Below are positions 39,128-58,565 of a stretch of 64,000 nt of DNA, piece by piece; the stretch's first letter is position 1, and each line of letters begins with the position of its first letter. The notes below the pieces were generated by a model, which worked only from the letters and a program-made list of their open reading frames with translations, did not search any database and was not told the DNA's origin. Origin of the DNA: Candidatus Adamsella avium (lineage in GTDB: Bacteria; Cyanobacteriota; Vampirovibrionia; Gastranaerophilales; CAJFVJ01). Made by a program: the position numbers and the translations under genes. The stretch is from the NCBI GenBank assembly GCA_904420445.1, contig CAJFVJ010000002.1, positions 124,001-188,000 on the forward strand, read 5' to 3'.

Positions 39128-39475
39128 ATGGCAAAACACGCAGATACAATACCTATTGAGGTTTTGATACTCACGGTTGATCATAATATAAAAGGAACTG
39201 TTTATGTTTCGAAGTATACAAATACGAACAGAGAGCTGACGGATTTATTGAATGACCGTGAAAGAAGATTTTTGGCTGTTACTGATGCTGAGATTATGAA
39301 CAAAGACGGGCATGGACCGCCGAGAAAATATAACTTTCTCGAAGTTCATATTGACTATATACTTATGGTTCATCCTTCAACACAGGTTATCTTCAAAGAA
39401 GCCGTAAAAACCCAAGAAGATATGGACAGATTCAGAGAATTGAGAAACAAGTTAAATCAAACAAGACCATTTTAG
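39128..39475 (+). CDS. Conserved small protein, possible DUF6812-type
   Basis: The 115 residues start AKHADTIPIEVLILTVDHN and continue KGTVYVSKYTNTNRELTDLL, NDRERRFLAVTDAEIMNK and FLEVHIDYILMVHPS. The pattern of a short beta-barrel regulator (strand, turn, long strand) is similar to small proteins of the DUF6812 kind, which I recall from related genomes; I am not certain of the assignment. No membrane segment. It ends at a strong terminator. Confidence 0.65.
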   Translation: MAKHADTIPIEVLILTVDHNIKGTVYVSKYTNTNRELTDLLNDRERRFLAVTDAEIMNKDGHGPPRKYNFLEVHIDYILMVHPSTQVIFKEAVKTQEDMDRFRELRNKLNQTRPF

Positions 39476-39514: not shown

Positions 39515-39697
39515 GCAAAAAAAAGCTCCCGACTGGGAGTAAAAGTTTTGTTAGGGTTTTTAGGTTAGGGAAGGTTAGTTAGGTTAGGTAGTAGGTTTTT
39601 TGTTTTGAAGTCTTTTAAATAACCCTTACATATATATAAAGTATATATTAGATATATAATTGTCTGACATTAAAAAACTTGTTACATTTTGTAATAT
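39515..39697. repeat. 180-bp intergenic direct repeat, copy 1
   Basis: Near-identical to 39969-40145. In order on the plus strand: A8, a CTCCC-GACT-GGGAG hairpin, a G-rich tract of TTAGG/TTAGGG units, a TATATATAAAGTATAT block, and the palindrome TTACATTTTGTAA (39682-39694). Read on the minus strand it has the order palindrome, AT-rich block, CCTAAC-rich unstructured segment, hairpin, U8, that is, promoter-to-terminator order for a small RNA. Confidence 0.85.
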
Positions 39698-39749
39698 ATT
39701 TTTGTAGTTATTTATTAATATTGCTAGTTTTATAAAGAAAGGTTTTTGT

Positions 39750-39968
39750 ATGAAGTTATCCCCCGTGTCTTCCGTAAGTTTTGGAAAAAGATTAAAGAAA
39801 GTAAGCATATTTACGCTCGCAAATCATAATTCGCCCGGGTATAAAAGGCTTATGGCTGACTACCAGAAACAACTTAAACGTGAGCAAACAAAAGAAAAAA
39901 TTGTTGAAGGCATTGTTGGTGTTGCTTCAAAGATAAAAAATGCCTGCTCAAAGATATTCAAAAAATAG
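39750..39968 (+). CDS. 72-residue basic protein with SVSFGK leader, between two direct repeats
   Basis: Unrecognised. The sequence starts MKLSPVSSVSFGKRLKKVS, matching the leader pattern of other proteins in the window (compare MNLSAVSSIKFTG at 43636). The C-terminal half (KREQTKEKIVEGIVGVASK and on) is a basic amphipathic helix with one Cys. GAAAGG lies 8 bases upstream of the ATG. The stop at 39968 abuts repeat copy 2, so gene and repeat may have moved or duplicated together. Confidence 0.6.
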   Translation: MKLSPVSSVSFGKRLKKVSIFTLANHNSPGYKRLMADYQKQLKREQTKEKIVEGIVGVASKIKNACSKIFKK

Positions 39969-40145
39969 GCAAAAAAAAGCTCCCGACTGGGAGTAAAAGT
40001 TTTGTTAGGGTTTTTAGGTTAGGGAAGGTTAGTTAGGTAGTAGGTTTTTGTTTTGAAATCTTTTAAATAACCCTTACATATATATAAAGTATATCTTTTA
40101 TATATAATTGCTTATAGCTGAGAAAGTTGTTACATTTTGTAATAT
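39969..40145. repeat. 180-bp intergenic direct repeat, copy 2
   Basis: Same order of elements as copy 1, with a 5-base deletion in the TTAGG tract and a few substitutions. The TTACATTTTGTAA palindrome is at 40130-40142 and the hairpin at 39980-39993. Confidence 0.85.
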
Positions 40146-40355: not shown

Positions 40356-42722
40356 ATGCAAATTAGAAATTCGGTAGACATTAATAAAAAATTTTTATCT
40401 AAGGGACGTCAAAAGTCCCAGGGTCATAGTCCCTCTTTTTATGAGAGTAAGATGTACACCCGTTCCAATAATTCTTTTAGAGAAAAGCCCTTAAATTCAA
40501 ATTCTTCGGAATTGTCATTTAAGGGCTTTTCTTTATCTTCCGTTAAAAAAGTTTATGAAGGTTTGACTCCTGCGATTGAAAAATATTCTCAAGCATTTGG
40601 AGATGATGCAGGGAAATTCCTTCGAAAAGAAATAGACAATCTTGCAAAAAATACTGATTTGGTTAGTGTAAAAGATGATGTCATCACTCTTTCTCAAAAA
40701 TCAGTTGCAAAATCTTTCGGAGAATCTCTTCTCTATCCAATCACCGGTATGCCTGCAGATATTTTTGAATTTATTCTGAAATCAGCAAAAAAAGTCCCTG
40801 GAATGGCCGAATCAAAAACGTTAAATAATTTATTAAACTCAAATTTTTTGCAAAAAAGAAGAACAGATATTGCAAACAATGCAAAAGTTGCTTCAATTTC
40901 TTCTCTTCTTGAGAAAGTTAAGGATGGCGCTACTCCGGATGATTTATTTAAAGCAGGTCATCGCAGATTGAACCCTCTTATATCAAACTACAGTACTGAT
41001 AAAGAAAGAGGTCTCAACAGACTTGTGACAGGTTTGATTCCGGCTGTTTACCTCGGGAATGATGCGTATAACCTTACAAGATTGATAAATGATGATGATA
41101 AGGAAGCTTCAAAAGAAAAAACAAGACGTATCAAACAGGAAGTAGCAAGAGTTGTCTTCACTGCTTATGCAACATTTGTATCGTTGGGTGCTTTAGGCAA
41201 GGTCATCAACAAGAGTCCGGCTCTTTCTGCAACCGTATCAACCGGTATAGTTCTTGTCGCCGAAGTATTCTCCCGTTTGTTGACGAACAAGCCGATAACT
41301 TTCTTATCTGAAAAAAGAGCAAAAGAACTGGCCTCAAAACAGGAAGGCGCTCAAAAAGATGATAATAAACAACAAATTGAATCGAAGAAATCAGAAAATG
41401 ATTTTTCTTCGAATATATCAAAAGCAGACTCTTACAACCCTGTTGTATTCAAGAGCGCAAAGGGTATAAATAAAAATTCACGTTCTGATGTTTTCAGACC
41501 TTTTGAAAGAACCAATCAGCCTTCTCAGGTATATTTTACAAACTCAAATGAAGAGAACGAAGGCAATAATAAAACAAGCGAAAAGAAAAAGTCTTCTATA
41601 TGGCCGAAGGTTGGCGCCGTTATCGGCGGGTTATGGGCATTAGGCTTTGCCGCTAACAAGTTTAAAGCAACTGACTTTGGCAAAAGTATTATAGAACCGA
41701 TTAAAAAAGGTTATAACAACATAATCAAAGAAGATGACCTTATTTCTCGTGCAGACTTTGATAAGGCTATGAACAGACTTCGCAAGAATGGTTTTTCAAA
41801 GGTAGCTGATAAATATTATGATATTATCAAAGACCAGACATCAGATATGATTAACCTCGGCAAAAAAGACAGAAAAGTGGTTAATCCTATCGTTAATGAT
41901 ATTTTGATATTCCCTGTGAGAACAGTCTGGAAATGGGCTATGATGCCTTATAACTTCACAAAAAATATTGCTGATATGGTGACTCACAAATCTGCAAAAT
42001 TGCGTGATGCTGATAAGGCTGTTTCCGATGCATTCAAAGCTATGTCAAAAGATGAGTTGGCAAGACTATCATCAAAACCTGCTTCTGAGTTATCAGAACT
42101 TGAATCAGGCATTCTGAAAAAAGCAAAAGATGAAATCGCTTCTCAAAAGAAAATGATTTCAAACAATATTAACTTTATCAGGAAAATCCCTGAAGATGCT
42201 GATTTCTCAAGGAAGGTTAATGAACAGCTCCTGGGGTCTTTTGATAATGTTACCAAGTCAAATTATTCAAATCACAATCTTGCAAAAATCACAAAACTTA
42301 GTGCAAGTGCAGCAACGAGTTACTTCCTGATTGCTGATAACTACAACCTCGTTATGCAGAAAAATCAGGATAAAGCTGAAGCTACTCAAAAGGCAAAAGA
42401 AAGAGCTATCCAAAGAGGCTATGGTATCCTCTACGGTTCGTTCCTCCTTTCTTTATTGAATAATGTATTCAAAGTTCCATACAGCAAGTCACTGTTTAAT
42501 ATGTCCCTGATAGGTGCAGCTTATGCCCTCATCAACGAAACAATAACAAGAAAATCAACAGGCTTGCCTCTAGGTGAAAAATCAAAAGATGAAATTCTTG
42601 CCGTAGAAAAAGAAAATCTCGAAAGCGACGGATTGAAAGGTAAGTATTTCAGACTAATGAAAACTATTACCGGAAAGAAAACTCTCTCAGAAAAACAGGC
42701 ATCAAAAACAAAGAAAAACTAA
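40356..42722 (+). CDS. Large lineage-specific membrane protein with internal duplication
   Basis: A 788-residue protein of no recognised family. The N-terminus is polar and ends in [12 protein letters not shown] (about 51-62). Two related regions, about 228-322 and 650-748, each have a YNL-containing helix, a Lys/Glu/Arg-rich stretch, two hydrophobic segments and a basic tail ([19 protein letters not shown] versus [20 protein letters not shown]). Between them lie a Ser/Asn-rich linker (320-410), another hydrophobic span ([18 protein letters not shown]) and a long helical part. Its 3' end overlaps the convergent hisF by 4 bases. Envelope location is inferred. Confidence 0.75.
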
Positions 42723-43635: not shown

Positions 43636-44250
43636 ATGAATTTATCGGCAGTTTCTTCTATAAAATTTACCGGAGAAAATCCTCAACCGGCTGAGATAAA
43701 ATCTCAACAACCTCAACAAACACCTGAGGCTGTTCAAACTCAGCCAAAAGAAAAAGAATCAAAATTTGCACAGTTGAAACAGCTTGCGAAAGATACTTAT
43801 TCCAAATCATCCCCTGAAAATACAACAAATCTCTTTCTGACATCAGGAATAATGGGCATTGTTTCAGGAGTGTTGAATCATGTCGGTAAAAATCATAATG
43901 TTATAAAAGCTATAGGAACAGTAGGTACGATAGGAGCGATTGCTTCTTTTGCTCTGGCAGCATCGCATGTCCTTAAAGACAGAGTAGATGATAAACAGCC
44001 TGTTAGTGCAGATACAACTCAAAAGGAAATTCAACAACCTGCCCCATCTGCCGAAGCAGAGGCTGTTGATGAAAAACAAACAGAGGCACTCAACGCCGGA
44101 GAAAAACCCATCGATGGCGAGAAAGAAGAAGCAAACGACGCAGAAGAACAAACACAGATTTCACAACAACTTCCAGAAGAAACCGCTGCTGCTTCTGCTG
44201 TTTCTCAACCACCGGCATCAAATGCGGCTTTTGCAGATTTTCAGAAATAA
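43636..44250 (+). CDS. Hypothetical protein with leader motif, membrane hairpin and Gln/Pro/Glu-rich tail
   Basis: An unrecognised 204-residue protein. It starts MNLSAVSSIKFTGENPQPAE, close to the leader of the 72-residue protein at 39750. A Gln/Pro-rich stretch (20-45) is followed by a helical region and two hydrophobic segments (about 75-120: TNLFLTSGIMGIVSGVLN and AIGTVGTIGAIASFALAAS), then an acidic Ala/Glu/Gln-rich tail. Monocistronic with its own terminator. Confidence 0.65.
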   Translation: MNLSAVSSIKFTGENPQPAEIKSQQPQQTPEAVQTQPKEKESKFAQLKQLAKDTYSKSSPENTTNLFLTSGIMGIVSGVLNHVGKNHNVIKAIGTVGTIGAIASFALAASHVLKDRVDDKQPVSADTTQKEIQQPAPSAEAEAVDEKQTEALNAGEKPIDGEKEEANDAEEQTQISQQLPEETAAASAVSQPPASNAAFADFQK

Positions 44251-56628: not shown

Positions 56629-58212
56629 ATGAAAATAACGCCGGTAGGAAATAATCAATATCTTAACAGAGGAAAGAAACAAGATAATCTGAGTTTCAAA
56701 AATTCTGCCGCATTGACTAATTCGATGAATTTTTTGAATAATCAGAAAATATTCGGCGCCTTTTTTGTTGATCTTGCCTCAATGGTTATACCTCGTACCA
56801 TCATTGATATGAGCAGGACGCCTGAAGCCGGAATAGAAACAGCAAGAAGAGAAGCCAGTTCATCTGTTTTACTTGCAGGAGTCGGGTTATTTGGTTCTCT
56901 GGCTGCACTCATGCTATCGCCTTTTTTGAAGAATAAATATGACGTGCCGCTCTATAAAATAGAAGCCAACAACAAGACAATGGATGCTTTTGCCTCAGCT
57001 TTTTCAGATGCTGTAAACAGAGTCGGAAGCAAAGATAAACCTGCTCTTGCAAAAGCATATTTGCGGAATATTTTTGACGGTATCTCAGGCGATAAGATGC
57101 TCAATCCGGCAAAAGAAGATATTATAGACACCATGTCAAAATATCTCGTTGAGAGCAATGATTATATTTTATCAAGGGACTCTCAAAAAAATCTCTTTAC
57201 CAAGCTTGTTGCATATACAGGAGAAACAGACCGCATAAAAATGCTTGCTAAAAATGGTGAAACTATTGATATTGGAGCCAAAGCTCTGATAAAAGACACC
57301 TATTCAATGGGGCGTGCTTTTTTGCAGGATAAGGTTCTTAAAGAATTTAAGCAGGCTGATAAGATTGCAGATAATAACTTCTTAAAATATTTGAAAAAAA
57401 TGACCGGCAAACAAACTGTTATCGGGCTTGTTCTTGCATCAGCCGTAGCAATGTCTATGCAGCCATTGAACAGCTGGCTGACAAAGAAAAAAACAGGCAA
57501 AGACGGTTTTTCTGTGGTTAAAGGGCAAAAATCAGAGAAAGATAAGAGTTTTGGTTTTAAAGCTCTTAAGGGTGCTGCATCTGCTGGCATGGCGGCTTTT
57601 GTTGTATCAACTATCGGCAACTTGAAACAGCTTCCGCAAAAGCTTCAGTTCAACGGGCCTGTTGCAAATGTTCCTCAGCTGAAAGTTGTTTATGGCATGA
57701 CAATTATCGGCAGATTTTTGGCTGCAAGAGATAAACATGAGCTGAGAGAGTCAGTGTTCAGAGATTTTATGGGTTTTGCAAACTGGCTTATTATCGGCGG
57801 TATTGTATCTAAGTCTGTTGCGTACAATCTTGATAAAAATTTGATTAAGCCTGAGTCAATATCAGGCAAGAAGGGTTTGAAAAAATATCTTTCTATGGAG
57901 ATGAAAAATCATAATGATTTGATATACGGCTCTGATTATGTAAAAAAATCGTTGAGAAACGGTGTTGATGTTTCTTCTTTGAAGATGAAAGATATACTTA
58001 GACGCATTGATGAGCCGACAAAGAAGATGATTAAGAAGCTGAATATTGCACAGTTGAGCGGATATATATATTCTGGTGTTGCGCTTGGAATATTGCTGCC
58101 TATTATTAACAAAAAACTTACGCAGCATATTATTTCGAAAAATTCAAAACAAGAAGATAATACACAAACAATCGACCCTCGAAGAAATGAGATTCTTTCT
58201 CTCAAGTCCTAG
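56629..58212 (+). CDS. Large lineage-specific membrane protein with LSFK leader
   Basis: A protein of 527 residues, unrecognised. It begins MKITPVGNNQYLNRGKKQDN followed at once by LSFKNSAALT, matching the leader pattern seen elsewhere in the window. Several hydrophobic helices (about 75-97, 262-280, 310-330, 385-400 and 490-510) alternate with Lys-rich loops. SMQPLNSWLTKKKTGKDGF at about 276-294 resembles the ends of the duplicated domain in the 788-residue protein. Probably an envelope protein. It overlaps the convergent yraN by 4 bases. Confidence 0.72.
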   Translation: MKITPVGNNQYLNRGKKQDNLSFKNSAALTNSMNFLNNQKIFGAFFVDLASMVIPRTIIDMSRTPEAGIETARREASSSVLLAGVGLFGSLAALMLSPFLKNKYDVPLYKIEANNKTMDAFASAFSDAVNRVGSKDKPALAKAYLRNIFDGISGDKMLNPAKEDIIDTMSKYLVESNDYILSRDSQKNLFTKLVAYTGETDRIKMLAKNGETIDIGAKALIKDTYSMGRAFLQDKVLKEFKQADKIADNNFLKYLKKMTGKQTVIGLVLASAVAMSMQPLNSWLTKKKTGKDGFSVVKGQKSEKDKSFGFKALKGAASAGMAAFVVSTIGNLKQLPQKLQFNGPVANVPQLKVVYGMTIIGRFLAARDKHELRESVFRDFMGFANWLIIGGIVSKSVAYNLDKNLIKPESISGKKGLKKYLSMEMKNHNDLIYGSDYVKKSLRNGVDVSSLKMKDILRRIDEPTKKMIKKLNIAQLSGYIYSGVALGILLPIINKKLTQHIISKNSKQEDNTQTIDPRRNEILSLKS

Positions 58213-58565
58213 ACTATATTTTCGAGATGGTATATTTTTATCTCTGGTTTGAGAAGGATTGATACAGCATCAAAACGAATGTTGTCGTAGTGTTTTTTGT
58301 TTTGTGACAAAAATAAAAGAGCGGTTTTTTTCATCTGTTCGAGTTTTTTGTTGTCTATTGCTTCAAGAGGGTTTCCGAAATCAAGGGAGGATCTCGTTTT
58401 TACTTCGATGAAAACGAGGGTGTTTCTTTGTTCTGCGATTATGTCTATTTCGCCCTGATTGTGTATTTGCCAGTTTGTGTGAAGAATTTTTAAACCTTTT
58501 TTTTGAAGATATTCCCTTGCAAGTTCTTCTCCGTGGCGTCCTGTGTCTTTATTTTGGGATTTCAT
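58209..58565 (-). CDS. YraN/UPF0102 endonuclease-like protein
   Basis: The 118 residues have the restriction-endonuclease-like core: GRHGEELAREYLQKKGLKIL, NWQIHNQGEIDIIAEQRNTL with the acidic residue, and FIEVKTRSSLDFGNP giving the E-x-K catalytic pair. YraN proteins are widespread, probably acting in DNA recombination or repair. It is often next to rnhB, but not here. Single minus-strand gene. Confidence 0.92.
   Translation of the reverse strand: MKSQNKDTGRHGEELAREYLQKKGLKILHTNWQIHNQGEIDIIAEQRNTLVFIEVKTRSSLDFGNPLEAIDNKKLEQMKKTALLFLSQNKKHYDNIRFDAVSILLKPEIKIYHLENIV

Follow-up and report, generated by a model that had tools for sequence, protein, structure and literature searches.

Two closely similar repeats lie on the minus strand of the window, the 64 kb stretch of DNA that was analyzed, and raise the question of what they encode and how they are controlled. 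Copy A extends from approximately 40144 to 39971, and copy B occupies approximately 39696 to 39517. The preliminary description read the region from 39515 to 40145 as twin repeats containing C-rich small RNA genes. Both repeats were found on the minus strand with their parts in the order proposed, and both recur in a sibling species; the same region also contains a 72-aa open reading frame (ORF) on the plus strand (39750-39968). The best reading, with a probability of roughly 0.7, is that the repeats specify a paralogous, order-wide small RNA (sRNA) that would serve as an RpaB-controlled multicopy riboregulator and probably base-pairs with mRNAs.

Architecture and conservation of the twin repeats

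Each copy consists of TTACAAAATGTAA, an AT-rich block, a C-rich segment of CCTAAC units, a CTCCC-AGTC-GGGAG hairpin, and T8, in that order. The TTACAAAATGTAA element is located at 40142-40130 in copy A and at 39694-39682 in copy B. The sequence TTACANNNTGTAA appears in the 64 kb window at these two places only, where shuffles predict 0.06 occurrences. The features of the region are as follows.

40129..40144, minus strand: degenerate HLR1 (RpaB box) of copy A, TATTACAAAATGTAAC, which includes TTACAAAATGTAA; 14/16 relative to TGTAAMNNWWTGTAAM, at an offset of 55 as in relatives
40073..40092, minus strand: promoter block of copy A, ATACTTTATATATATGTAAG; same sequence in copy B, in the sibling, and in many relatives
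39971..40077, minus strand: predicted small RNA of copy A, 107 nt; 137.9 bits with covariance model R1 and 54.0 bits with R2
40004..40045, minus strand: C-rich, nearly G-free segment of copy A, ACCTACTACCTAACTAACCTTCCCTAACCTAAAAACCCTAAC; from the sequence and structure prediction
39971..39993, minus strand: intrinsic terminator of copy A, CTCCC-AGTC-GGGAG-C-T8; compensatory stem changes across the family
39681..39696, minus strand: degenerate HLR1 of copy B, TATTACAAAATGTAAC; 100% identity with the sibling
39625..39644, minus strand: promoter block of copy B, ATACTTTATATATATGTAAG; same block as in copy A
39517..39629, minus strand: predicted small RNA of copy B, 113 nt; 150.8 bits with R1 and 55.5 bits with R2
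39550..39596, minus strand: C-rich segment of copy B with CCTAAC units; from the sequence
39517..39539, minus strand: intrinsic terminator of copy B; from the sequence
39750..39968, plus strand: 72-aa ORF located between copies A and B; divergent from the copy B promoter and convergent with copy A

The two RNAs differ by one substitution (T/C) and by two small length changes that sum to 6 nt. In the promoter block of copy A, GCAATT lies 19 nt 5' of ATACTT, and the transcription start would fall near GTAAG, at about 40077-40073. The C-rich segment of copy A is predicted to be unpaired except for the 3' CCCUAAC, which can pair with the 5' GUAAGGGUUA. A long-range stem, GUAAGGGUUA/UAACCCUAAC, is predicted in both window RNAs and is absent in other genera; it was set aside as genus-specific at best.

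Copies A and B both occupy the corresponding place in the sibling genome (G001). Relative to the sibling, the copy A RNA shows no substitutions and one 6-column gap, and the copy B RNA is identical at 114 of 115 positions. Identity amounts to 96-100% in the boxes and 94-100% in the promoter blocks, but drops to 60% in the box-to-promoter spacer of copy A and to 81% in the upstream region. Since the RNA, box, and promoter were kept while the spacers diverged, the repeats appear to be selected RNA genes and not the product of recent duplication alone.

Copies in other genomes also end in the hairpin and U run that the preliminary description had pointed to. A U run preceded by a perfect stem of 5 bp or more is present in 38 of 41 distinct 3' parts, and the terminator stems covary (CTCCC/GGGAG, GCTCTAAT/ATTAGAGC, and GCTCCG/CGGAGC). 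The RNAs of the family contain 9% G and 20% C, the largest closed ORF is 7 aa or less in 51 of 57 RNAs, and the predicted mean probability of being unpaired is 0.91 for the core. The predicted genes have their own promoter, no ORF, an intrinsic terminator, and a conserved single-stranded core, as proposed for duplicated sRNA genes whose C-rich part is unstructured. The box, promoter, and terminator all have the orientation of the C-rich strand, and this settles the question of strand in favor of the minus strand. The repeats are thus predicted minus-strand small-RNA genes, with expression and start site deduced from the sequence.

The 72-aa ORF is a neighbor that lies outside the sRNA genes. 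It has no Pfam match and is also present in the sibling genome with a DNA identity of 94.5%. The sRNAs are adjoined by a highly conserved DUF6812 gene (39128-39475, plus strand), which was found in 97 of the 97 relatives searched with an identity of 62-81% outside the genus. A motif of the form S(V/S)xF(G/KG/TG) appears at or near the N-terminus of several proteins encoded on the plus strand at 39750-39968, 40356-42722, and 43636-44250 ('SSVSFGK', 'ELSFKGF', and 'SSIKFTG' are examples), and is possibly a localization or targeting signal of the lineage.

Distribution of the sRNA family

Covariance model R1 was built from four copies (window and sibling) and run on 286 genomes of the order. Weak but full-length matches were obtained in 49 of these genomes, often two or more in each. 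Their common architecture consists of TTGTAAAGAAATGTAACA, approximately 45 nt, GTATATACTTTATATATATGTAAG, an A-rich leader, the C-rich core CTTCCTAACCTTCCCTTCCTATTAAAAGTATTGCTC, a hairpin, and a U run. An exact scan of 84,980 species genomes with the 20-mer TTCCTAACCTTCCCTTCCTA returned 92 stretches, nearly all from Candidatus Gastranaerophilales MAGs. The second covariance model, R2, was run on 386 genomes of the phylum and provided matches in 165, among them a divergent form, UUCCUAUUCCUACCUUCCUA, in many genera of family f2; some genomes of the order have no R2 match. A third copy is located in this genome and its sibling (C1:351059-351127). The covariance modelling and genome-wide copy count suggested in the preliminary description thus yielded a stem that covaries and a further copy in the same genome.

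Two sets of matches were rejected. The R1 match at 58123-58222 of the window has no C-rich core, lies inside an apparent coding stretch, and is missed by R2. The R2 matches outside the order (21 genomes, E ≤ 0.05, best 7.5e-4) are weak and near chance level, and the best of them (L302) has no terminator.

At the 28 loci inspected in other genera, the sRNA never lies beside a DUF6812 gene, and the sRNA copies move between neighborhoods. No Rfam family matches the sRNA (eight loci), and the family was not previously listed; no small RNAs from this branch of the phylum are described in the literature found. From sequence, the repeats are best described as putative paralogs that encode an order-wide small RNA in Candidatus Gastranaerophilales (Vampirovibrionia/"Melainabacteria").

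The upstream box and the composite promoter

Photosynthetic cyanobacteria use the HLR1 element in light and redox stress responses. The sequence TGTAAAGAAATGTAAC, when reverse-complemented, is GTTACATTTCTTTACA and fits the HLR1 consensus KTTACAWW-N2-KTTACAWW, which is bound by the cyanobacterial response regulator RpaB (PMC13421787, PMC9241938). Among 62 sRNA promoters anchored on CTTTATATAT, the second half site TGTAAM is present in all 62, a perfect 16/16 HLR1 core in 51, and the full 18-bp HLR1 in 48. The HLR1 core sits 54-55 bp 5' of CTTTATATAT in the relatives and at the same place in the window copies. The HLR1 pattern was observed 55 times in 71 upstream windows for an expectation of 0.07, the background being the flanks of the same loci (4 matches per 1.13 Mb strand-bases).

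The boxes of the window itself are degenerate, with 14/16 of the HLR1 core and TATTAC in place of the first TGTAAM. The background probability of at least 14 matches at two offsets is 0.0007. A TATTA(A/C) first half recurs in the sRNAs of family f2 and in the third copy of this genome. Since it is a recurrent first-half variant, the palindrome TTACAAAATGTAA noticed initially is most simply a degenerate HLR1. The palindrome is present in both window copies but is not kept as such in other genera, where the direct repeat TGTAAM-N4-TGTAAM is conserved instead. As an operator in its own right it was rejected and replaced by the HLR1 reading; three other perfect copies are present in this genome in unrelated contexts.

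Two regions with TTACAAAATGTAA elsewhere in the same genome were noted. Near 424.8 kb of C1 (L065), tandem paralogous proteins of 190-360 aa begin with MGL(A/S)ASQA..L.LT.R.SDLE, and one intergenic region of this array contains a perfect TTACAAAATGTAA. Near 509.8 kb of C3 (L069), a long AAAT tetranucleotide repeat lies immediately 5' of the TTACAAAATGTAA site and gene start and looks like a phase-variation-type repeat.

If transcription starts near GTAAG, the box would span roughly -68 to -53, near the range of -66 to -45 from which RpaB activates at HLR1 (PMC13421787). This genome encodes three OmpR-family regulators (PF00486), of which one, the RpaB ortholog (L253:1003-1749), passes the equivalog cut-off of NF045944 (367.7 bits versus 330). 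A 2013 report described homologs of RpaB, RpaA, and NblS in Melainabacteria and suggested another function as possible (PMC3787301), and no RpaB regulon in Melainabacteria is reported in the literature found.

Of 60 relatives, 47 carry the composite pattern of HLR1, 25-50 nt, and ATACTTTATA, and the reversed-pattern control returned 0. The spacing is 35 or 36 nt in 90 of 101 composite promoters, and G(C/A)AAT(T) lies 19 nt 5' of ATACTT in 96 of 101. The composite promoter also precedes small protein genes in addition to the sRNAs, and the set would behave like a regulon. Beyond the preliminary description, the sequence comparisons identify the box as a predicted RpaB/HLR1-type element, the promoter as part of a putative regulon, and the family as apparently order-wide.

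Mode of action and rival explanations

Under the preferred reading of an RpaB-controlled sRNA, minus-strand transcription would start near GTAAG, approximately 60 nt downstream of the HLR1-type box, and end at the terminator hairpin to produce an RNA of 107-113 nt that is G-poor and mostly unstructured. The box would be placed where phosphorylated RpaB activates in cyanobacteria, and motif, position, and regulator together make the RpaB ortholog the probable activator of the sRNAs and of a small set of protein genes. The exposed CU-rich core UAACCUUCCCU, flanked by CCUAAC units, probably pairs with a limited number of G-rich mRNA sites. These sites would be located near or at ribosome-binding sites, where pairing could either lower or raise translation, and the gene copies would add up as dose. 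We infer both RpaB control and the regulation of mRNAs by the sRNA from these features.

Two known systems offer likenesses in design. PsrR1 (SyR1) of Synechocystis and other cyanobacteria is a trans-acting sRNA of the RpaB regulon under HLR1 control (PMC13421787), and it pairs at the ribosome-binding regions of its targets (PMC6202907). Unlike the boxes described here, which would be in an activating position, PsrR1 is described as belonging to the high-light regulon repressed by RpaB, and no photosynthesis targets are possible in this organism. LhrC1-5 of Listeria monocytogenes, a G-poor multicopy sRNA whose CU-rich (UCCC) sites are redundant, is induced via the two-component system LisRK and is thus also driven by a response regulator (PMC4132741). 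It belongs to a different phylum and regulator, shows no sign of a relation by sequence, and its targets are proven, with SD-blocking shown there. The absence of an Rfam match at the eight loci applies to both comparisons, and the box is of the HLR1 type and not a LisR box. By analogy, the sRNA probably acts like a response-regulator-driven sRNA of the PsrR1/LhrC type, a likeness that is not one of demonstrated homology to either.

Specific base pairing, as in LhrC, is the most likely mechanism, and a protein decoy is its main rival. The preliminary description pointed to the targeting of Shine-Dalgarno (SD) regions. As a generic anti-SD RNA, the C-rich part would sequester the SD of many mRNAs nonselectively. 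Across 300 gene starts of the same genome, the duplex energy of the core indeed reaches its minimum at -12 to -8 (mean of -5.0 versus approximately -2.4 kcal/mol elsewhere), and low-GC bacteria are known to have SD-binding sRNAs with UCCC-type motifs (LhrC, PMC4132741). However, composition-matched shuffles of the window core paired better than the real core at SD positions in 30 of 30 cases, strong single-site matches were no more frequent than for shuffled cores in approximately 464 kb of the same genome, and the core lacks CCUCC, the actual anti-SD. Because shuffled cores pair as well or better, generic SD blocking is unsupported and must be considered improbable. As a decoy, the near-invariant CU-rich core would be a site or sponge for a KH-, S1-, or cold-shock-type RNA-binding protein and would not base-pair. 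This explanation is unlikely on balance but deserves serious attention, given that the conservation of the core over many genera (20 nt exact, 92 stretches) exceeds the apparent need of pairing to drifting mRNAs and that short units are repeated. No Hfq was recognized in 20 genomes, which would also suit a decoy, but the same profile misses the control Synechococcus elongatus. No RNA-binding protein of the required type was identified.

The remaining rivals concern the switch and the strand. The same sRNA family could have a box that is bound by another OmpR-family regulator, or that is a mere part of a strong promoter class, with RpaB not acting as the switch. The two further PF00486 regulators and the unusually fixed -35-like G(C/A)AATT and -10 blocks, with their 19-nt arrangement, are consistent with this proposal. 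It is nonetheless rather unlikely, since a single regulator reaches the RpaB cut-off and the box in relatives corresponds to the published HLR1 consensus letter by letter in a predicted activating position. A plus-strand G-rich regulatory or structural element (TTAGG-rich and G-quadruplex-like) with no minus-strand RNA gene, the alternative left by the preliminary description, derives from the G-rich complement of the C-rich segment. It is very improbable, because all copies inspected carry the box, promoter, RNA, and U8 terminator in collinear order on the minus strand, and the unrelated neighborhoods of the copies leave no constant plus-strand gene to regulate.

Within the preferred reading of specific pairing, mRNAs of the putative regulon pair slightly better than other gene starts, a comparison in which SD strength and start-codon errors are confounders. 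The sequence AGGGAAGGTTA occurs exactly only in the sRNA genes themselves. A candidate target gene at about 22241 of the window was rejected, as its site is conserved only because it lies within the end of the upstream gene.

It is a real possibility, put forward tentatively, that the circuit of RpaB, HLR1, and sRNA runs in the whole order of these non-photosynthetic, mostly gut-dwelling relatives of cyanobacteria, with an sRNA family of its own as output. If so, the RpaB/HLR1 network and its action through small RNA would not be tied to photosynthesis and may predate it. The sRNA promoters are concrete order-wide candidate sites of fixed architecture for RpaB without photosynthesis, and the model, the box pattern, and approximately 100 loci can be used for small-RNA annotation in this branch of the phylum.

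The direct repeat KTTACAWW-N2-KTTACAWW, its predicted position at about -68 to -53, and an RpaB ortholog are shared with the cyanobacterial HLR1/RpaB regulon. In contrast to that regulon, there is no photosynthesis here, and the putative members are the sRNAs, Gly-rich and other small proteins, and a protein of 54-56 aa. The latter (MAVANLKKIDDKLKxIY...LFAQMNFIAMANxxALxL) is conserved and follows the HLR1 composite promoter in many genera (L310, L311, L313, L316, L317, L323, L329, L331, L333, and L335), and a nadD-like gene lies downstream of it in several loci. The same promoter precedes Gly/Asn-rich proteins that carry 'RP..AGQF/GQW..G' and 'NNNF' motifs (L309, L312, L318, L325-L328, and L330).
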